The notes beneath the pieces were generated by a model, which was given only the letters and a program-made list of their open reading frames with translations, had not been told where the DNA came from and made no database searches. A program made the position numbers and the translations under genes. Below are positions 10,054-55,210 of a DNA stretch of 64,000 nucleotides, piece after piece. Where the stretch lies: positions 124,001-188,000 of the forward strand of contig JAZDSV010000029.1 of assembly GCA_036784855.1 (NCBI GenBank). The letters run 5' to 3'. Each line of letters starts with the position of its first letter. Positions within the stretch are counted from its first letter, which is position 1. This stretch comes from Aphelidium insulamus. Lineage: Eukaryota > Aphelidiomycota > Aphelidea > Aphelidiaceae.

Positions 10054-12534
10054 ATGCCGTGCATATACCGGCCAGTGTCGCCGCCGCCATCACGGCCATC
10101 ACAGCCAGCGGAGCGGTCACGGTCACAAAATGATGTCGCCAGTGATGATATGGCCATTGACCGGCGACGCTCTCCGTCCCCGCCATCCGCGCTCGCCGCA
10201 GCAACTCTCGGCAGCCGTCCACAATCGTTGCTGAGCACGCTGGCAGCACAGCACATGGACTCGGCTGGCAGCGGGCCTCAAGCTGATGTCGACAATGACA
10301 GTGTTGGACCACCTCTCGGTGATAATATCGGTGGTTGCAAGGCGTCTCGCGCCAGAGACACGTCCGCCAAGCGCCCTGAAGCAGCGATGATGGACTGCGC
10401 GGTGGAGATGCCAATTGGGGACGCGGAATCTGCACTGCCACCACCACCCACCTCGCCCGAACTTTGCAGCCACTATGAAGAGTTTGCACGCACCAGGCGC
10501 ACCGGCTCGCCCATGCCCAGCGGGGCGCTGCACGATCGCGTGCTGGCCATCCACAAGGTCAAGCAGCGGCGGCACTTCAAACGGCGCCAGCTACAAGAAT
10601 ATGGTGCTGCTGGTGATTCTGTTGGGGAAGCTGGCTGCACTATGTCCGCCCCACCGCCTCACATGGACATGGTTGTCACAGCACCGTCTGATTCCACAAT
10701 TGTCACATCTTCAGCGCCATATCGCGTTGGAGATGCTGCGGCAGTTGGTGGCGGTGCTGGGAGCTTGCTATGTCGCTCGCCTCCAAGTGACAGTGTCAGT
10801 TCTCGCGTCTACTTGGCCATGTCTGGTCGGGACGCCGGGTACGCCGTGTCAACATCGTCACTGTCATCTTCTAATGCAGCGGTGATATCGGATGCATCTA
10901 CTTCACGCCCGCATTCTGCTTCCTCCGCGCCACTAACGAAAGAGGGCCGCCGCCGCAAACGCACAGTGTCCAGCCCTGGCCGGTCATTTGCCCCACCTAT
11001 GACGGCCGCGTATGAATGGTCCACCATAACGCCATCGCCTCTGGGCGCCAAGTTTGACACGCTGCCCGACTGGGTGGACAAAATGTCTCTGCAGAATAAT
11101 GACAGTGCCGACGTGGATGATACTTCTATGGAGCCATCGATACGGCGACCCAGCTTGAGCGTGCAAACGGATTTCGGCAGTCATCGCTCCTCGCCATCCA
11201 TCTCGAGCGCCACCGCCATCAACGGCGAACTCTACGGCAGCTTCCTTGGCACCTATGAGGTATGTGCTTCGTATTCTGTTATTTGTACAATCAGCTTAGA
11301 TAAATAGGAATCAATATTGAATGGCCGGCTGTCAACGCCTCCATCACGTCCGCTGTCGTTTGTATGCCAGGTGGGCGTCATTGGCTTGGAGGCCAAGTGT
11401 CCACAGGCATTGAGATGTCCGCCGCACGTAACCATCCCGTTCCAGGCGTCGTTTTACGAGTGGAATCGCAACAGCAGCACCCCAGCTGCCACCGATGCTT
11501 CTGCCACTATCAATATTAATGGCGCCTCCATTCAGTCGCCGCCGATATCACAACAGCAGCCCTCCAGCCAGTCATCGCAGCCTGTTGCCAGTACCGACGC
11601 ACCTGCGGCATCTGTGAAACAGCCATCCACCGAGACCAGTTTCAACATGACTGAGGAGCTGGGCACGCCGTATGTGGGCACCGTGGACCTGGAGTGGGGA
11701 CTGGGGCCGCAAAACAATTACGGTTATGCCAGTGCTGCCGCTTCTTGTTCTGCCGACGACAAATCGCTGTCCTCCACCTCATCATCGTCACTGTCTGGCG
11801 ACGGAGGCAGCCTGTACGGGGCGGGCAATCTACCGAGCTACCGCTCGCTGTCTGACCCGCCGGGGTATCTGCGGCTGCCGCTCAAGGGCCGCCTGCAGCT
11901 CATGATCCGCAACCTGCACCGCGTGGTAGTCAAGATGTTTATGGTGCCCTATGATTTCACCGCGATGCCCGTGCACACGCGCACATTTATCCGACAAAAA
12001 ACATTCCTTCGGCCGGATCAGCAGTCGCTCAGTGATCGCCGGCGCGACAATGGTGTGGGGTCGCTGCGTCATGCAGTCCATCTGTCATTCATTTGCTTGC
12101 CGACGGGAAGCGGGGGACGCTCGCGGGGGCACCGGTCGTCGTACTCTGTCGGCTCTGGTGTGTCATTTGCAAAGTCGTCACGGAGTAGCGGTGGCGATGC
12201 TATTGCTAGTGGCACAACGCCAACGTTAGCACTGTCCAGCTCTGTGGGTGCCGCCGAGGATCAACTGACTGCTGCGATGGCCATGTCGGACAAGCGTCGC
12301 TCCGCACAGCGCCCAGCGCAACAAAAGACACTGCAAAAGGCGCTCTACTTGCACAAATCCATTCGAGTGGTGTTTGGACACCGTGTGGTGGAGGCGGAAA
12401 AAGATCGCGGCGAACGCGTGGAAGTTGTGGCCGAGGGTCCCCATGGCCGGTGGATGAGTGAGTACGCCGATTCGGAGCGCCAACCAACCCCCGAGCAAAT
12501 GTATCCCCGCGCCGTTGGACCTCCAATTAAATAA
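10054..12534 (+). CDS. Atos/FAM214-family protein
   Basis: Two exons (10054-11259, 11308-12534) encode 810 residues. The N-terminal half is low complexity, rich in Ser, Pro and Ala. Around the intron lies GSFLGTYEESILNGRLS, followed by VGVIG, CPPHVTIPFQASFYEWN, GTPYVGTVDLEWG, RLQLMIRNLHRVVVKMFMV, PYDFTAMPVHTRTFIRQKTF, LRHAVHLSFICLP and LYLHKSIRVVF. This succession matches the C-terminal region of Atos (Drosophila) and ATOSA/ATOSB (FAM214A/B) of animals and related fungal proteins. Atos is described as a nuclear transcription regulator in fly macrophages, but the role in a protist is unknown. Two long insertions (about 11470-11640 and 12100-12330) separate the conserved strands. The first true ATG is 10054; the open frame before it lacks one. 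The TAA stop (12532-12534) lies inside AATAAA. Confidence 0.82.
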
Positions 12535-12709: not shown

Positions 12710-15700
12710 ATGAACTGGTACCGCGTGCGATGGATGATACGCGTGTTCCGTGTGCGGACCATGCTGCTGTGCGGCGTCTACGGCGCCGTGGCCATGTTTG
12801 TGTTCCACGTGTTCTACGACGGTGGCGCAGCGGTTAATGGACCGCGTGTTCCGCGCAGGCCCGTCTACTATTCGCGTGGTGGTGGCGGCTCGCAGAACAA
12901 CGCACAACAGCCACAGATATCATTCATTGCCGACAGTAGTAGTGGTAGTGGTGGTGGCGGCGGCGGCGGGGCAAACAGTACGCGCAATGGGCGGCGGAGA
13001 TTGTACGCGCGGCAGTACACTTCCACGCTAACATGCAACCTGGGCGAGCGCACTATGATGGTGGAGAACTTGTACATTATTCGGGGCGAGTACCACGCGT
13101 ACGTCGGCGCCGACTACCGGCTACCATCGCAGTGCTGTGCCGGGGGTGTGTGTGGCGCCATCGACCCCGCCACCGGCCACCTGGAGAGTATAACAGTGAC
13201 GCTGGGCATTGGATTCGGCGGCAGCATGGCCGTGCTGGATCTGGCCGAGTTCAGCACTGCCGCCGACGCCGATGTTACGGCCAGACCTCCGACAGACAGC
13301 AGTGCCACCATGCTGTCCAAGGATGAGTTGGCGGATCGCGCGGAAGAGGCTGCCATCAAGAAGAAGGGCGCGCCGACCAACGTGTCTGACATTGCGGAAG
13401 TGGCGCACCGTCTGACTGTCCGTGTCCACGCATCGGACCCACCCGCGCATCTTGTACCGCGGCACAGTGAAGACTACTCCAGAAGCACCTCTGTGCGCTA
13501 CCTGAACGAGCCGACAATATTCTTCTGCACGCTGTGGGACAATTTTTTCCGCACGATTTACGCCGGCGTGGGCGCCTGGTTCACCATGATGAATTACCGC
13601 GTCTTCTTTCCGCATCAGCACCGATTTGTGCTGGTGGCGCCTAGTCCCGCCAAGTTTGACCACTTGCTGCAGATGGTAGCACCGACAGAGCTTGTGCGCG
13701 AACATCAGCTACTCCGCGACACCGACACCACAGTGACTGTGATGAAGGCCGCCGTGTTTGGTATAAGCAAGGATGTTCGGCTGGGTGAAATTGATGCAAG
13801 TACCATATCTATATGTATTGTAGATGTACTTGTATGCATTTACACGCTTCTAAGCAGTGCTCACGTCACAGGTGGAAACAGATCGTGGATGGCGATATAT
13901 TCTGCGCTCATTTGCTCTGCGAAGCTTTTGCGGTACTTGTTGAACTTGTTCCAAGTACCTGCCAGGAATAATGTATGCATGCAGGCAAGATAAAGACTCA
14001 GCTGTTGCAGAGTCGGTATGGCGAAGGTGCTGGCGGCAATTCCATGTTCGTGGCAGCGGACAAGCACTTTGGCGCCGACAACAACAACGACGAGTTTGAC
14101 GAGATCTACAACAAGCTCATCATTGCCATGAACAAGCGGGAGGTGCAAGAGGGACACAGCAGCGAGCAGCACTACTTCATCCAGGTGATGAACGACGCCG
14201 TACTGAGCGCCGACCGACACAAGCTGAACCGTCGCGCCGACCAGCTCAGCATGACGTTCATTATCCGAGAGGGCAGCACACGCAACATACTCAATGCCGA
14301 CGCACTGATCACGGCCATCAAGGAGCGGTACCCGCAGATCAATGTCAAGGCACTCAACTTTGACAAATTTACCTTTGACGAGCAGGTGGAGATCGTCTAC
14401 CAGACCGACATCATGGTTAGCGTGCACGGGGCGGCGCTGGCCCACGCTTTATTCATGCGGCCCGAGACGTACATGATCGAGCTGTTCCCGTTCGGATTCC
14501 GCAAGACAATATACCAGAACCTCGCAAAGAGCATGGGCGTCTACTATTCGTTCTGGGAGAACACACACCCGGAGAACACAAAGTTCTACTGGGACTACGT
14601 GGACAAGCATCGCTTCACGCGCACGCCAAAGTCCGTCATCACTCGCACAGCCACCGACTGGTACAATATGGACTCCAAGAATTATTGGCGCAACCAGGAC
14701 ACCTTGGTGGAGGTGCCGGAATTCATGCACACCTTGGAGAATGTGGTGTGGTTCCATGAGTCGGGGCACAATGGCCGGTTCCTGCTGTACCAGCCGTGGG
14801 AGCAGGTGAACAACCAGCTGATCGGCCTAAAGTCTGCGTGCGCCGTGGCAGCCATGCTCGACCGTGTGCTCATTATTCCCGATGTCGGCCGCGCCGTGAA
14901 GACCAAGAGGAATAAGCGGCAGAAGGCCGGCGCGCAATTCGACCCCGAGTCCTATGCGTGGTCGTCCTTCTTTCGGTACTTTGATTTGCGACAGTTCCTG
15001 GGTGGTGGCGGGCAGGCGCCTTGCCGCTTCACTTCTGTCGACAACTTTATCTCGCTTAACCAGGGCAAGCGGCTGGGCAAGATACGCTACCACCATCTCG
15101 CCGACGAGGCCACCAACGAGAAGCAGCTGGAGAACTATGTGCAGAATGTGCTGGACATGGACCACGACGGGCTGGAGCGCGGACAAGAATTCTACTACCT
15201 CAATGAGGACACTATCAGGCGACTGCACGACGACACACAGCTTTTAGCGACAACTGCCCGGGTGCTTACACTGTCCTCCATGTTCTGGTACTTTGATTTC
15301 GGGGTGGAACCGCCGTATTATATGCCCGGCAGCCGTCGACACCGGGCCGAGTACATTGACTACATCACGGCGTCCAGCCAGTATGCCGGCATCATGCGGG
15401 CAATCGTGCCGCACACTCGCATCCAGAACATCGCCTCCATGACACTGGCGGCACTGAAGCAGAGTCAGGTTCCAGCAACAGCAAAGGGTGGCAAGCCGGC
15501 GGGAGGCAAGCAGGCTGGCGGCAAACACTCGGCACCACAGCCATTCCAAGCACGGGTGGTCACCATACATGTTCGCCGAGGCGACTATTTGAAAAAGTGT
15601 GAAGATCAGTTCCTGCTGCGCCGCGCTGCCACTCCGCCACCGTCATCGCCACTATCGGCATCTGCAGACACCCAGCCACTGCCAGGGTGGTCGACGGACC

Positions 15701-16317
15701 CGGCAGATTTCGCACTGTTTCGCCGCTGCTTCCCCAGCGACCAAGACATTGCCCGGCGCATCAGCCGCATGTACGACGAGCTCTACATCACGGCAGACTC
15801 GGCGCCACCGCCCGACAATTGTGCCGCCGTGTTCTACATCAGCACCAATGATCCGACAGTCAAGCACGATGCCGGCAAAACAACAGCTCCGCCTCCACAG
15901 CAGACTTTGCAGAGCGGTGCCGCAACCGATGTCACTGATGACTACGGCGGACAAGACAGTGGAGAGGATGATGTGGGCGGCGGCGGGGCAGCTGGCGATA
16001 TGGCGGCCCACCTGGGTGACACGTACCAAATTGGGACACTGCGCGGTCTGCTTCCGTCACAGCTACAGCGCTGTGTGCAGTTCAGCGTGGACGTGGTGCC
16101 GCGACTAGACGAGCTGCAGGACCACGACGCGGCACTGGGGCTGAGTGAAGTGGACCGGACGCTGATTGATCAGTGGGTGGGCGTGCAGTCGGACAGGTTC
16201 GTCGGCAACTTGTGGTCGTCGTTCTCACGGCATGTGGTGGAGTGGCGGCAACTGCACTGCAACCGCTGCGATACTGCCCCGCTGCCCATATCCGATGAAA
16301 TAGTCTCGTGGTTATAG
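12710..16317 (+). CDS. Bifunctional glycosyltransferase: GT61 module fused to O-fucosyltransferase module
   Basis: A type II membrane protein of about 1,160 residues. ATG 12710 gives a short basic cytosolic tail and a signal anchor (TMLLCGVYGAVAMFVFHVFY), then a Gly/Ser-rich stem. Module 1 (about 13500-14560) carries IFFCTLWDNFFRTIYAGVGA, MNYRVFFPHQHRF, FDEQVEIVYQTDIMVSVHGA and FMRPETYMIELFPFGF, the pattern of GT61 enzymes such as EOGT and POMGNT2. Module 2 (about 14770-16260) begins NGRFLLYQPWEQVNNQLIGL and has LDRVLIIPDV, VTIHVRRGDYLKKC and AVFYISTND, the pattern of GDP-fucose O-fucosyltransferases. Two introns near 13797-13854 and 13931-13981 fall inside module 1; the second is fixed by the frame VETDRGWRYILRSF...FCGKIKTQLLQ. 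The second module is one uninterrupted exon that continues the first without a stop. Golgi or ER location is inferred. Acceptor substrates are unknown. Confidence 0.85.
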
Positions 16318-22319: not shown

Positions 22320-24806
22320 TTATCCGCGTAGTGTCGCCGATGGCCGCATCGTCGGTTCATTGGCCATCTCGCGGCGGATTATCCGGTGCACCTTGTACGC
22401 AGCCAGCACACCGCACAGACTGATCAGCGAGAAGAAGCACTCCATGCGAAAGTAGCCGGCGGCATCAGACCGAATCTCACCCTCCTCCTCTTCTTCCGCG
22501 GCATTCGTCACACTGCTACTGCTACCCACAGACGTCACCACTGTGGTGTTGCCCTCATCCACGCTGCCCGCTGACAGCAAATAGGCCACAATCAGGGGAG
22601 TGAGGAAGAAGACTGCGTTCACCAGACATCCAGACAGTCCGTACGCAGACGCCACTCGCCCGTCTTCCTCCTGCGGCTGTGCTGATTGTTGTTGTGCCGC
22701 CTTGTTGTTATCGGAACTGGCAGCTAGCTGTGGCATAGGTGTTGGAGCGGTGCCAGGCGGTGCCACAATCTCGGCCATCAGACTGTACAGCACGGAACCG
22801 TACGCCGAGTATCCGACACCCAGCGTGAGCAGCGGTAGAAGCGGGTGCCACTCGGTGAATGTGAATTCCAAATGCGCGACAAAGATGAACAGGCCGCTGA
22901 GCAGGATCTGCATGGACTTTGTGTGCAGCGAGTGCAGGTTTGCTTGTGATAGTGAGGTGCTCGTTGTGGGGGTGGAGTCAGCGGCGGTGGCGGGCGCCAC
23001 AATAGTCACCGCGGCACTGCTCGTCGAATCCGACGCCGAGTCGACACTGGTGCTGATTATCATTGGTGTCGGCGCCTCGTTGGTGGTCGGCGAAGTTGGT
23101 AAACGGGTGTACGATGATTCTTGCGCCGTCGTGCTTGACGATACTGATTCCCCCTTGCTGTTGCGCCGCCGCTTGCTCAGCCTGTCGGCAACTATTCCCG
23201 CCAGCGGCAACATCACCACGGAAAAGGTGTCGGGAATGGACACAAAACTGGACGCACTGACATAGTCGCCGGGAAAGTATTTCTGCTCCAGGAATGCCGG
23301 TGCCATCGGAATAAATGTTATGGTGGCGGTGGAGTAGCAAATGAGCGAGGCGGTGGTCAGCCAGAATGTGCGCGGAAACTCCAGACAGTGCAACGGCAGT
23401 AGGCGGAATATCCAGCGAAGCGGCCGCGGGAACTTTGCAATCATCAGCTCGATTGCAGCAGCAGTGTGTGCAGGTGCTGCGCCCACTTTCTTGTTTGCCT
23501 CGCAGCGGTCATTGGACGTGGTGCGCTTCATGCCTGTTCGTGGCGGGGAATTCCCGCTGGTAGTGCCAGTGTATGCGGCAGTCGATTGCTGCTGAACCAA
23601 CGGCTCTCTCGCCTCCCTGTCCGGTACTTCACGCAACAGTTCGGCGCTGCTGCGATGTTTGAGCGTGGCAGCTGATGCCACATTGGGCACCGCAATGTTG
23701 TTGTCAGCATTCAGGAACATGTCCCTCACTCCGCCTTGCGTGTCGTCCTGCTGGTCAGGCTCGCAAATAGCAATGACTTCCTCGTCGCCAATGTCGGTGC
23801 CAGACGCCGCCCTCTGCCTGCCAGTATTATACTTGTCCAGCAGGACGGCCAAGATTGCCGCGACCAACGAGAAGGTACACATCCCCACAGCCATCCACGT
23901 GGCATTCGGCACCCCGTACGCGGTGGCCACCTTGGGCATGACAGTATAGTTCATCACCGATGTAAGACGTGACATGGACATTGTAACGGCCAGCGCAAAT
24001 GACAGATCGGCCGAGATAAAGTACTTGGTCACCAAGCTGGACTGCGCAATAGTTAGACTCTCGGAGCCGATTCCTGCCAGCAGGATTAGAGAACGCTGTG
24101 CATTTTCTTATAATTTACATGAATTATATACATAAATAAATATACCTAGAAGTATGCGACCAATGAGCATCCAAGTAAACAACTTGGACGTGACACCGAT
24201 GGCATAGACGAGCACTCCGGCAAACACAAACGAAGTCAGTGTGAGCAGCATGGCCGAGAATCCAATTCTATATCCAGTTAAAGAGTACTTGTGTAATTAC
24301 ATAACAATAGTAAGCAAGTGAAGTAGCTGCAGCGTACCGCTCAATGGCCGAACCGGCAAACACGGGCAGCACAACGTTGGGCAGCGAGTACGCCGAGTAG
24401 AGCATATTAAATTGGTACTGGAACGTGGAGAATGGAACATCCAGCCACTCTTGCAGCATCCTGCACGCTATTTAGTACTGGCTACAAGGTGGACACGCAG
24501 GCAGACAGATAGACACACAGCCAGACAGACAGACAGACAGGCAGACGTGCCTGTTTAGAGTGGACGGGGAATCGTATCCACCGCTTGAGCCAACCTCAAC
24601 GCGCGCGGAACATGTCAGCAGCCGGTATACAGCATGTAGAGCAACCACATACGTACCATGAGGAAGCAAGCTAGTGCCAGTATCACGTAGCGCACATAGT
24701 CACGATAGTATATGGCAACGCGGTCCCGCCGATACTTGAACAGCCAGAACAGAGCCAGCGCGGCCAATAACGCGCAAAACAGCCCCGCCGCCACCGCGTA
24801 CTCCAT
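22320..24806 (-). CDS. MFSD1: MFSD1-like major facilitator transporter, copy A
   Basis: Six or so exons. The first (ATG 24806, MEYAVAAGLFCALLAALALF) opens helix 1; a small exon near 24551-24598 gives GGYDSPSTL, and the next exon begins MLQEWLDVPFSTFQYQF, then MLYSAYSLPNVVLPVFAG. The last exon has SLVTKYFISADLSFALAVTM, the counterpart of the family's FWFKGKELALAFGL, and SRLTSVMNY. Six further helices follow a cytosolic loop of more than 100 residues rich in Ser, Asp and Gln. MFSD1 of animals is a lysosomal dipeptide exporter. That copy B (34721-36980) aligns over the same blocks shows both belong to one family. The intron at 24461-24550 contains a GACA-type microsatellite and seems to start with GC. 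The transcript is divergent from RTF1 (153 bp between ATGs). Confidence 0.82.
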
Positions 24807-34720: not shown

Positions 34721-36980
34721 ATGATGGACACCGACGACGGCGAGGATGATAATGCTTCCGACAGTGCCGACACAGAGCGTCGTGCATGGCCCCCTTCCGC
34801 AAAGAGGTGCTGCCATGGAGCCGAGACGCGATGGCTGGTCCTGCTGCTCAACTGCTTCCTACTGATGGGCAACTACTACGCCTACGACAACCCGGCCGCC
34901 ATGTCCACGCTGCTGGAAACGTATCTCGACCTGCCAAAGTCACAGTTTGACTATGTGCTCGGCCTCTTTTACTCTGTGTACTCGTTTCCCAACATTATCC
35001 TGTGAGTCGCTTGCCACACGCAAGCATTGCCACTAATTCTGTGGGGTGCATGCAGACCATTCTTCTCTGGGTTCTGCATCGATCGTTTCGGGCCAAAGTA
35101 CGTCCTACTCTTCCTGTCGGGGTGCGTATGCATTGGCCAGATGATCTTTGCTCTGGGTGCTACGGTGCGCAACGTGCCGACAATGCTCATTGGCCGCATA
35201 GTGTTTGGCATCGGTGGGGAGAGCGTGAGCGTAGCCCAGGTCAGTGTCAGTGCAAGCCAGAATGTTCCGCAGCCAACCGCCATTTGCATAGAGCTGCGTC
35301 ACCACCAAGTGGTTCATGAATAAGGAGCTGGCGTTTGCTCTGGGGCTTAATTTGGCCGTGCCGCGCGTTGGCAGCGTTCTCAACGCCGTCATAAGTCCGG
35401 CGATAGCAATTGCGTGGAACAAGCGATTTCCCGGCAGCGACACTATCGACAATGACGGTGACAATAGGTCTCATCTGGTGGGTAATGGGGTAGTTGTGGC
35501 GCTCTGGGTCGGCTTTGGAATGTGCCTGCTATCCATGCTGAGTGCTATTACGCTGGTGTTTGTGGTTGGCACAGAGCCGCCTTCCACCGACGAACTTGTT
35601 GACGACTCCATACCGGGTGATATCGGTGGTGGCAGACTGCCCCCCGTTCTTCCCCCGCCCCTGTTGTACATATCACACTCTACCGAGGCTTCGCCGCTGC
35701 TTGCTCGTGCTCAATCACTTGGACGGCGGCGCGAAAACGTTAAGTCTCTTACAGTTGTTCAGCCTCCGGCACTACTCACTACATCCTCCTCGTCGACATC
35801 GCCGCCACCAGTACCGCCGCTGCTTTCTGCACAGCAACCGTCTGTTTGTAACTCGTCGCCAAAGTTTTCAGACACTATGCGAGACTTTGCGCGCTCCAAT
35901 ATTATGATATTCCGTTCGTTTCCCGTGGAGTTCTGGCTGCTCTGCCTTATTGTAATGCTCGTGTACGGCACCATAATCCCCTTCAACAACATAATTAGCG
36001 AGTTCCTACAAGCAAAATGGTATGGTGATGATCCGGCCACCGCCGGCCAAATTATGGGCATTCCCGACACCATCTGCGCATTTCTGGTACCGTTCTGCGG
36101 GTACGCCATCGATCGATACGGAAGGCGAGCGACTGCACTGATTGCGTGCTGTATGTCGATAGCTGCTGTCCATCTGACACTGGCGCTCACGCCACCCAAC
36201 GCTGTCGGCACGTGGGTGATACCAGTGCTGCCTCTTATCCTTCTCGGCCTGTCGTACTCTGTGTACGGCGTGGCGTTCTGGAGCGCCATTGCTTGTGTGT
36301 TTGGCGTGCAGGAAACTATGCACGACGAACATAACCCCAGCCAACAATGCACTGTATCCGATATTGCACCACTACTGCCAGCTACTGCATCACCGCTTGT
36401 GCTCCGACGCCAATTCTCGCGCATTGCCACCAGCAGCACACAGTCCCTAAATCGGCTCAGCACCACATCGCTGCCACTACTGGCGGCATCGCGCGCCATT
36501 CCATCAGCATTGACCGCATCTCGAACATTCACACTTGCCGCTTCAACGCTGCGCGTGGCCACCATCGGAGAAGACGAAGAGCGGAATACAAGCACGCCGA
36601 TTTTCAACGTCGACTCATGTACACCGCCACCAGTAACTCTAGTACATGCAGAAGAAGGATTGAACACAGAAACGGTAGAGGTAGAGTTTGTCGGCACAGA
36701 CCATCTTGCAGTAGCGTATGGCCTCTCCACCTCGGCACTCAACCTCTCACTGACATTCGTACCCGTCCTCACCGCCCTGATAAGGGAAAGCTATGGCAAC
36801 AATGTGGATGATCGAACAGACATTGATAGACCGGCAGCGCGTGGCTATGCGCCCTTTGTGCCGGTGGAAATGTTTTTCGCCGGCGAAGCCACGGTCGCCG
36901 CCCTAGCCAGCTGCATAATATTGTGGCTTGACTGGCGGTATCACAGCGGGCGCAACCTGGAGCTAGTGCGACTGGAATAG
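34721..36980 (+). CDS. MFSD1: MFSD1-like major facilitator transporter, copy B
   Basis: Three exons (introns about 35001-35055 and 35240-35290) encode about 710 residues. After an acidic N-terminus come TRWLVLLLNCFLLMGNYYAY, DNPAAMSTLLETYLDLPKSQ, YSVYSFPNIIL, PFFSGFCIDRFGPKYVLLF (the D-R-G loop motif of MFS), GRIVFGIGGESVSVAQ, and TKWFMNKELAFALGLNLAV-PRVGSVLNAV, which match MFSD1. A long Ser/Thr/Pro-rich loop separates the two six-helix halves. Another long insertion (about 36310-36690) lies between helices 10 and 11, before the helix AYGLSTSALNLSLTFVPVL. Animal MFSD1 sits in lysosomes with the partner GLMP; no such partner is visible here. The N-terminus does not show an obvious dileucine sorting signal apart from Leu-rich helix 1. 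Confidence 0.88.
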
Positions 36981-53884: not shown

Positions 53885-55003
53885 TCACGGTTTCAGATCC
53901 ACTAATTGCCTCGCGCCGTGACGCAACAATACCACCACCGCGGCACGATTACCACAATTAGCTGCAATATGCAACGGAGTGTTGTTGCTGGAATCAAACG
54001 ATTTGACGTTTATCTTGAGTCGCATCTCGTCAAGTAGCCAGATCATTACGTCGGGGTACACCGTGTTCCGTGCAGCCAAGTGCAACACAGACCGACCGTC
54101 AGGACTATATAGGAGTGCATCGGGGCTCCACAGCAGTTGAACCACGGCAGATGATGCATATCTGCAAGCGTACAGAAAGGGCGTCCACTGCGAGTTGTCC
54201 ATTTCGTGCAAGTTGGCACCAGGAACAGCGACCAGTGTACTTGCAACTTGCCAACTTGAGCCAGTAATGCCGACATAGTGCACTGCAGTCCGTCCCTGAG
54301 AGTCTTTGACGTTCACCAGTGCGGCATGTCGATCTTCCGGAACATGCTCAAAAAACAACTGCACTTCCGTCAGGGTGCCGCGCATAACCGCCAGATGTAG
54401 CGGGGTTCGGCCGAAAATATTTTGTTGAAATACATTTCCGCCGTGCTGAAGCAATAGCAGCACAATTTTTTCACGCTTTGGCAGTGAATCCGGACGGCTA
54501 TAGTCATGGTAGCTTTGCACTTGTCGTGCGGGGAGTAGAGCGTAGTGAAGCGGACTGGCGTGCCAGACATCTAGCGCGTTCACCGAAGCGGGGTTGTATT
54601 GCAAAAAGATCGCTGCGAGTACGAAATAATTATGCTCACATGCGTAGTGAAGTGCGATCCGACCAGATAGATCTGTGTGTGCCATGAAGTCCTGGCCTGC
54701 CTGTGACGAGAGCAGCCTCATCGCCAGTTGGGGTTGTCCCATTTGAATAGCGGCAACCAGCGGATTAGGATTTCGTACGAAATACTCGGGTATTTTTGCG
54801 TTACACGAGGGACAACTCGGCTCCTGACATCGCGGGAAGTAGATGTGTTGGGCAATGCACTCGCGGTGAAATAGGTGCCCACATGGCAACCGCACAGCTT
54901 CTTCATCGTCCGACACGCCATTCAGGCAAATAGCGCATTCCATGCTCGCAGCACCAAGCTCGATCAGAAGTGCCGCGACCAACAATGCCACGTGCACGCG
55001 CAT
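53885..55003 (-). CDS. RING finger-ankyrin repeat protein with signal peptide
   Basis: Intron-free frame, 372 residues from ATG 55003. The N-terminus (MRVHVALLVAALLIELGAAS) is a textbook signal peptide or signal anchor. Immediately after it lies a complete RING-H2: CAIC, then CGHLFHREC and CPSC (C3H2C3-like spacing, with an extra RCQEPSC). About seven ankyrin repeats follow, for example GRIALHYACEHNYFVLAAIF, GRTPLHLAVMRGTLTEVQLF, GRSVLHLAARNTVYPDVMIW, NNTPLHIAANCGNRAAVVVL. RING-ankyrin proteins are normally cytosolic E3 ubiquitin ligases, so the signal peptide is odd. No other transmembrane segment is visible. Stop at 53885 is 25 bp from the end of the convergent membrane-protein gene. Confidence 0.85.
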   Translation of the reverse strand: MRVHVALLVAALLIELGAASMECAICLNGVSDDEEAVRLPCGHLFHRECIAQHIYFPRCQEPSCPSCNAKIPEYFVRNPNPLVAAIQMGQPQLAMRLLSSQAGQDFMAHTDLSGRIALHYACEHNYFVLAAIFLQYNPASVNALDVWHASPLHYALLPARQVQSYHDYSRPDSLPKREKIVLLLLQHGGNVFQQNIFGRTPLHLAVMRGTLTEVQLFFEHVPEDRHAALVNVKDSQGRTAVHYVGITGSSWQVASTLVAVPGANLHEMDNSQWTPFLYACRYASSAVVQLLWSPDALLYSPDGRSVLHLAARNTVYPDVMIWLLDEMRLKINVKSFDSSNNTPLHIAANCGNRAAVVVLLRHGARQLVDLKP

Positions 55004-55210
55004 ACGGCAAATGGACAAAGACGAAGCACAACGAAAAAGATGAAGGGCGCGAGCACGGGGTGATTAATGCAGGCAAGGGGCAAGCTGAACCTCGGGCGAA
55101 AAAACAACAACAACGAAATAAGTACGGAGCAGTGAAGAAGGTGCAATTCTAGGAAAATCCGGAGCAAGTTGTAGGAATTCGAAATTCGAATGCTTGATGC
55201 AAAATATAAA

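Follow-up and report, generated by a model that had tools for sequence, protein, structure and literature searches.

Positions 12710-16317 on the + strand of a 64,000-nucleotide stretch of the Aphelidium insulamus genome (contig JAZDSV010000029.1, positions 124,001 to 188,000, hereafter 'the window'; G000:C96:124001-188000 in an assembly of 18.0 Mb and 169 contigs) hold a single gene, with a predicted product of 1157 residues. The product begins with a single membrane anchor, followed in the same protein by two glycosyltransferase (GT) modules: one of family GT61, related to POMGNT2 and EOGT, and one of the O-fucosyltransferase (O-FucT) type, related to POFUT1 and POFUT2. This is the layout of a bifunctional type II membrane protein, and both modules would be luminal. 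Taken together, our evidence supports a natural, conserved fusion of the two modules in one gene.

The gene comprises three exons (Table 1). The preliminary description had already read it as one continuous gene encoding an anchor, a GT61 (EOGT/POMGNT2-like) module and then an O-FucT module, the latter within one open exon; the open frame, the Pfam matches and the homologues agree with it, and the third exon is one open frame of 781 codons. Across this frame the other two forward frames contain 21 and 20 stops, GC content at third codon positions stays at 0.56-0.84 per 100 codons through both modules, and the AlphaFold2 model of exon 3 has a pLDDT of 74.0 and a pTM of 0.79. A gene model with a single intron (13800-13984) was replaced: the alignment with the homologue P0002 exposed a 51-nucleotide exon within that stretch. 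Both Pfam domains fall outside the stretch changed between the two models.

Table 1. Exons, introns and motifs of the fusion gene (positions in the window; nt, nucleotides)
Feature	Positions	Strand	Basis
Exon 1: cytosolic tail, signal anchor, stem, N-terminal half of GT61 module	12710..13799	+	ATG-initiated open frame (12710); homology to P0002-P0004
Signal anchor / transmembrane helix, residues 17-35	12758..12814	+	Highest mean Kyte-Doolittle value (1.93) of the first 100 stretches of 19 residues
N278-x-x-R281: Asn of the N-R-R triad and Arg at the POMGNT2 H166 / EOGT H248 position	13541..13552	+	P0004 aligned to 7e9j; Arg in 22/22 rows
Intron 1, 82 nt, GT..AG, phase 1	13800..13881	+	Required to connect homologous frames; exon 2 aligns to P0002
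Exon 2, 51 nt	13882..13932	+	Window RG--WRYILRSFALRSFCG aligned with RGKEWRFALRQKALTLFCA of P0002 (Chytriomyces protein)
Intron 2, 52 nt, GT..AG, phase 1	13933..13984	+	P0002 comparison
Exon 3: C-terminal half of GT61 module, entire O-FucT module, stop	13985..16317	+	781-codon open frame
R475 and R480: both Arg of the GT61 N-R-R constellation	14266..14283	+	22/22 aligned rows
HGAA motif of GT61, residues 528-531	14425..14436	+	
Junction helix DWYNMDSKNYWRNQDT close to where the GT61 module ends, residues 605-620	14656..14703	+	Profile alignment; equivalent to POMGNT2 EWLFRIYQDT
O-FucT (POFUT1/POFUT2-like) module, residues 646-1157	14779..16314	+	
PWEQVNNQ donor/catalytic loop, equivalent of POFUT1 CMGRFGNQ	14794..14817	+	Low-scoring POFUT1 alignment (4.2-10.1 bits here); E in 17/22 rows
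HVRRGD motif	15568..15585	+	Aligned to POFUT1 HLRIGSD and POFUT2 HLRRKD
GDP-fucose-binding end motif DQWVGVQSDRFVGNLWSSF	16168..16224	+	Aligned to POFUT2 DQWICAHARFFIGTSVSTF

Upstream on the same strand, a gene with DUF4210 and Chromosome_seg domains (11308-12534) ends 175 nucleotides 5' of the fusion gene. Elsewhere in the window, two open frames resemble MFS transporters (22320-24107 on the - strand and 35292-36980 on the + strand), and another encodes a RING finger and ankyrin repeats (53885-55063, - strand).

Motifs of the two modules

The GT61 module scores 66.3 bits with the Pfam profile Glyco_transf_61 (curated cut-off 27) and has a POMGNT2-like GT-B catalytic fold. UDP binding in this family involves an Asn and two Arg residues (N245, R372 and R377 in EOGT; N163, R294 and R298 in POMGNT2), and this N-R-R constellation has been proposed as a hallmark of GT61 (PMC13123520; this and the papers below are cited from part of their text). 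In the window the triad is complete (N278, R475, R480), and it is conserved in all 22 rows of our alignment, which leaves out 13 of 35 proteins as truncated, single-module or very long (P0003, P0012, P0013, P0015, P0016, P0017, P0024, P0025, P0027, P0028, P0032, P0034 and P0035). Among the invariant columns of these 22 rows, 24 of 32 lie in the GT61 part, including the acidic residue E360. The proposed catalytic residue is a His located three residues past the Asn, H166 in POMGNT2 and H248 in EOGT, and EOGT activity is markedly reduced when H248 is changed to Ala (PMC13123520). At this position the window has Arg281; the POMGNT2 alignment around N278-R281 was made by phmmer and its posterior confidence there is moderate.

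Is the fusion protein then an orthologue of POMGNT2, the GT61 enzyme that acts as protein O-mannose beta-1,4-GlcNAc-transferase? The two share the GT-B catalytic module, the N-R-R triad and a helix ending in QDT. However, Arg281 replaces the proposed catalytic His, and POMGNT2 carries an FnIII domain after its GT61 domain, where the fusion has the POFUT-like module instead.

This second module follows the conserved junction helix after about 25 residues and has a POFUT fold. The window retains PWE, identified by motif, and HVRR, DQW and SSF, identified by profile alignment. We take the PWEQVNNQ loop to be the equivalent of P53-E54 of POFUT2 and the Arg of HVRRGD that of R294, and presumably E54, R294, D371 and S387/F389 all have their places within the window's motifs. 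These are the catalytic or GDP-fucose-binding residues of POFUT2 (PMC10481521).

Relatives and paralogues

Protein searches, each of which scored only about 8,000 candidates, returned at least 34 distinct homologues, and the true number of relatives may be higher. In precomputed annotation, both Pfam domains are assigned to 24 of these, GT61 alone to eight and O-FucT alone to two. The preliminary description had held that finding the two genes apart in relatives, with no fused transcript, would speak against it. This is not the case: of the 34 homologues, 24 are fused, although stand-alone O-FucTs of this type do exist (L002 in the same genome, and P0035). Both domains are present in Chytriomyces hyalinus and Irineochytrium annulatum (Chytridiales), Clydaea vesicula (Lobulomycetales) and Lobulomyces angularis, as well as in a green alga, Picochlorum BPE23, where the gene lies on a contig of 2.29 Mb. 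The nearest relatives found for the fusion gene are chytrids; together with the strong chitin synthase matches and the PMT O-mannosyltransferases of the genome, they indicate a chytrid-like fungus.

The single-domain annotations cover a range of situations. Proteins of Podochytrium, Siphonaria, Cladochytrium and Quaeritorhiza are annotated as GT61 only, and most of them have a partial O-FucT module. Within the GT61-only group, P0003, P0020 and P0027 have O-FucT matches below threshold, P0028 terminates soon after PWEQFNNQ, P0025 contains a PWEQLGAQ stretch, and no recognisable O-FucT motif was found in P0021, P0023 and P0024. As to the O-FucT-only proteins, P0032 retains the GT61 junction and P0035 starts with a hydrophobic stretch of its own. 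The curated cut-off of the O-FucT profile (31.5 bits) is passed by 10 of 16 scanned relatives, with 66.1 bits for P0002, 68.1 for P0004, 41.9 for P0009, 35.7 for P0016, 34.6 for P0017, 63.8 for P0022, 58.8 for P0026, 51.4 for P0029, 53.6 for P0031 and 37.1 for P0033, besides P0032, P0034 and P0035; there is no match for P0021, P0024, P0025 and P0028. P0016 (Lobulomyces, 1925 amino acids) and P0017 (Clydaea, 1789 amino acids) have nearly identical GT61 parts and a GT61 domain that begins only past residue 650-800, and no O-FucT catalytic motifs were recognisable in either. Over the 22 rows, among them some in which the O-FucT module is degraded, the two modules show modest co-evolution (Mantel r 0.35, a value reached in 24 of 2000 permutations).

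The same genome also encodes the modules separately. L002:544-2718 (G000:C102:21 kb) encodes a type II O-FucT that belongs to the same subfamily, stands alone and has intact motifs. In the O-FucT tree, L002 and P0035 cluster with the fused P0004 and P0022 (97/98; the P0022 branch is long), and this grouping hints that a GT61 module may have been lost later or that the fusion may have arisen more than once. The 320 residues preceding the O-FucT of L002 were considered as a decayed GT61 module and rejected, their hhalign score with the GT61 profile (13.2) falling within the range of 20 shuffles (9.5-22.7). Three stand-alone GT61 genes have N-x-x-H by motif: L003 on C139 (NIMH), L016 on C108 (NPYH) and L018 on C64 (NYYH), the first being POMGNT2-like by eye (QDT helix, HGS). 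The GT61 tree including these paralogues groups P0020, P0021 and P0023 in one clade (100/100); its branches are long and its backbone is unresolved, so that it does not establish a single origin of the fusion.

Alternative functions of the two modules

On balance we lean towards a single protein, membrane-anchored in type II orientation in the endoplasmic reticulum or Golgi, with tandem GT-B modules that are both catalytic on one acceptor glycoprotein. We prefer this bifunctional reading because all 22 rows retain the N-R-R triad and the POFUT motifs are intact in the window. The GT61 module would transfer a sugar from a UDP-sugar, most likely UDP-GlcNAc and possibly UDP-xylose, and the POFUT module would transfer fucose from GDP-fucose. 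The short connection would keep both active sites over one acceptor glycoprotein, and the acceptor would receive both sugars, at one site or at adjacent sites, before it leaves the enzyme. With an invariant Arg in place of the His usual on the acceptor side, the GT61 module may use a base or an acceptor different from those of POMGNT2 and EOGT.

As to donors, the genome contains four GMD-like exon pieces (C1:356301-357532), none of which singly exceeds the model cut-off, and a GDP-L-fucose synthase exon on C152 (E-value of 5.6e-44 against the solved enzyme). The fungus may also be able to make UDP-xylose, because a gene read by eye as UDP-xylose-synthase-like, with a hydrophobic N-terminal stretch, lies at G000:C1:199-202 kb (L029). 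The presence of UDP-GlcNAc is assumed from the chitin synthases (20 exon-level PF03142 matches in the genome, best 782 bits). PMT O-mannosyltransferases were matched as well.

Several observations weigh against two working active sites. Arg stands at the proposed catalytic His position in 29 of 29 proteins containing the region, window included, with a search pattern that allowed either Arg or His; six of the 35 proteins (P0012, P0013, P0015, P0025, P0032 and P0035) have no such region. The O-FucT module of the window scores 27.1 bits, below the Pfam cut-off, and contains long low-complexity insertions (15478-15549, 15610-15696 and 15862-16017) that are absent from P0002 and P0004; the third is mostly modelled with pLDDT below 50, the other two only in part. 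The E or the R (of HxR) of the O-FucT module is lost in five of the 22 rows (P0018, P0019, P0020, P0021 and P0023), and in these relatives two working active sites are unlikely, judging from their sequences. Finally, a search of the genome for the known acceptors of POFUTs, EGF and TSP1 domains, found neither; it also found none in 14 control genomes and had no positive control. The preliminary description had proposed that a single enzyme might add two sugars. What stands of it is the conserved, membrane-anchored single-gene fusion; the addition of two sugars is a step that we infer, because Arg replaces His and the five relatives above have a degraded O-FucT active site, even though the window's own residues are otherwise intact.

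Could the invariant Arg mean that catalysis is confined to the O-FucT module? The GT61 module would then be a pseudo-enzyme, binding either a UDP-sugar or the acceptor glycan and offering it up for fucosylation. The three stand-alone GT61 proteins of the same genome, with their N-x-x-H, make the invariant Arg stand out, and the strong effect of the H248 to Ala change in EOGT points the same way (PMC13123520). However, the UDP-binding triad is retained throughout, most invariant columns lie in the GT61 part, and the catalytic residues lost in some relatives are those of O-FucT, not of GT61; moreover, the new invariant E360 could serve as a base. We regard a GT61 pseudo-enzyme as unlikely, but it is one of two alternatives to be taken seriously.

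A similarly low probability attaches to the other, the reverse case, in which the constant activity is that of GT61, whereas the O-FucT module serves as an accessory acceptor-binding domain that replaced the FnIII domain of POMGNT2 and drifts to a non-catalytic state in several lineages. The module is indeed located where the POMGNT2 match stops, near POMGNT2 residue 475, and the loss of catalytic residues in five rows, together with the missing motifs of P0016 and P0017, would fit such a drift. Against this, E and R are both kept in 17 of the 22 rows, window included, the genome has GDP-fucose synthesis genes, and the stand-alone relative L002 has intact motifs. It is less probable still that the C-terminal module is an active transferase using another GDP- or UDP-sugar, or one that fucosylates a glycan rather than a protein; PF10250, as we understand its coverage, includes plant enzymes of different specificity such as the GT106 rhamnosyltransferases, and P0004 has a weak GT11 match below the GT11 cut-off. 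A merger of two neighbouring genes through an assembly or base error is highly improbable: the fusion is known here from genomic DNA rather than cDNA, but it is also predicted in Chytriomyces, Irineochytrium, Lobulomyces, Picochlorum and several metagenome contigs, the frame is open through the junction, and none of four polyadenylation-like hexamers sought occurs within the gene.

Comparison with known glycosyltransferases

EOGT, the EGF-specific O-GlcNAc transferase of family GT61, shares with the fusion the N-R-R triad, an HGAG motif and similarity in the C-lobe, but has His248 in place of the Arg; we know of no second catalytic module in EOGT. POFUT1 (GT65) and POFUT2 (GT68) share their fold and their catalytic and GDP-fucose motifs with the C-terminal module, which differs in sitting behind GT61 and in its long insertions. 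To our knowledge, the known POFUTs are single-module proteins of the endoplasmic reticulum. The cytosolic PgtA resembles the fusion in having two GT modules in one protein, one of fucosyltransferase type (in the fusion, a predicted one), but its modules belong to other GT families and its substrate is the Skp1 hydroxyproline glycan. In Dictyostelium and Toxoplasma, this one protein (GT2 + GT74) adds two successive sugars, one module being a fucosyltransferase (PMC6939170). The diatom Man II/GnT II fusion, too, is membrane-anchored in type II orientation and has two glyco-enzyme domains (PMC12507850), but the pair consists of a glycosidase and an N-glycan-pathway GlcNAc-transferase.

Eight O-FucT subfamilies are distinguished in a survey of fucose genes in fungi from 2023, and the words 'fusion' and 'GT61' are both absent from its text (PMC10481521). 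'Fungi' and 'fungal' are both absent from the corresponding portion of the EOGT structure paper (PMC13123520). Searches of the open-licence literature for a GT61/O-FucT fusion, or for its parts in fungi, gave no paper on the fusion among the matches listed. Tandem glycosyltransferases are known as such (PgtA, diatom Man II/GnT II).

More tentatively, the fusion may represent an old bifunctional class, common to chytrid fungi and a green alga, that builds a two-sugar unit (a UDP-sugar-derived residue and fucose) in one binding event on secretory glycoproteins, the GT61 His having become an invariant Arg and the base or acceptor being therefore different. Since two-module glycosyltransferases often show which sugars follow one another, the fusion predicts a physical link between POMGNT2/EOGT-type and POFUT-type reactions, which in animals have separate proteins as their targets. 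The invariant change from His to Arg next to an intact UDP site is a natural test of the role of the GT61 catalytic residue, and chytrid fungi, in which fucose glycoproteins are little known, gain a testable enzyme.
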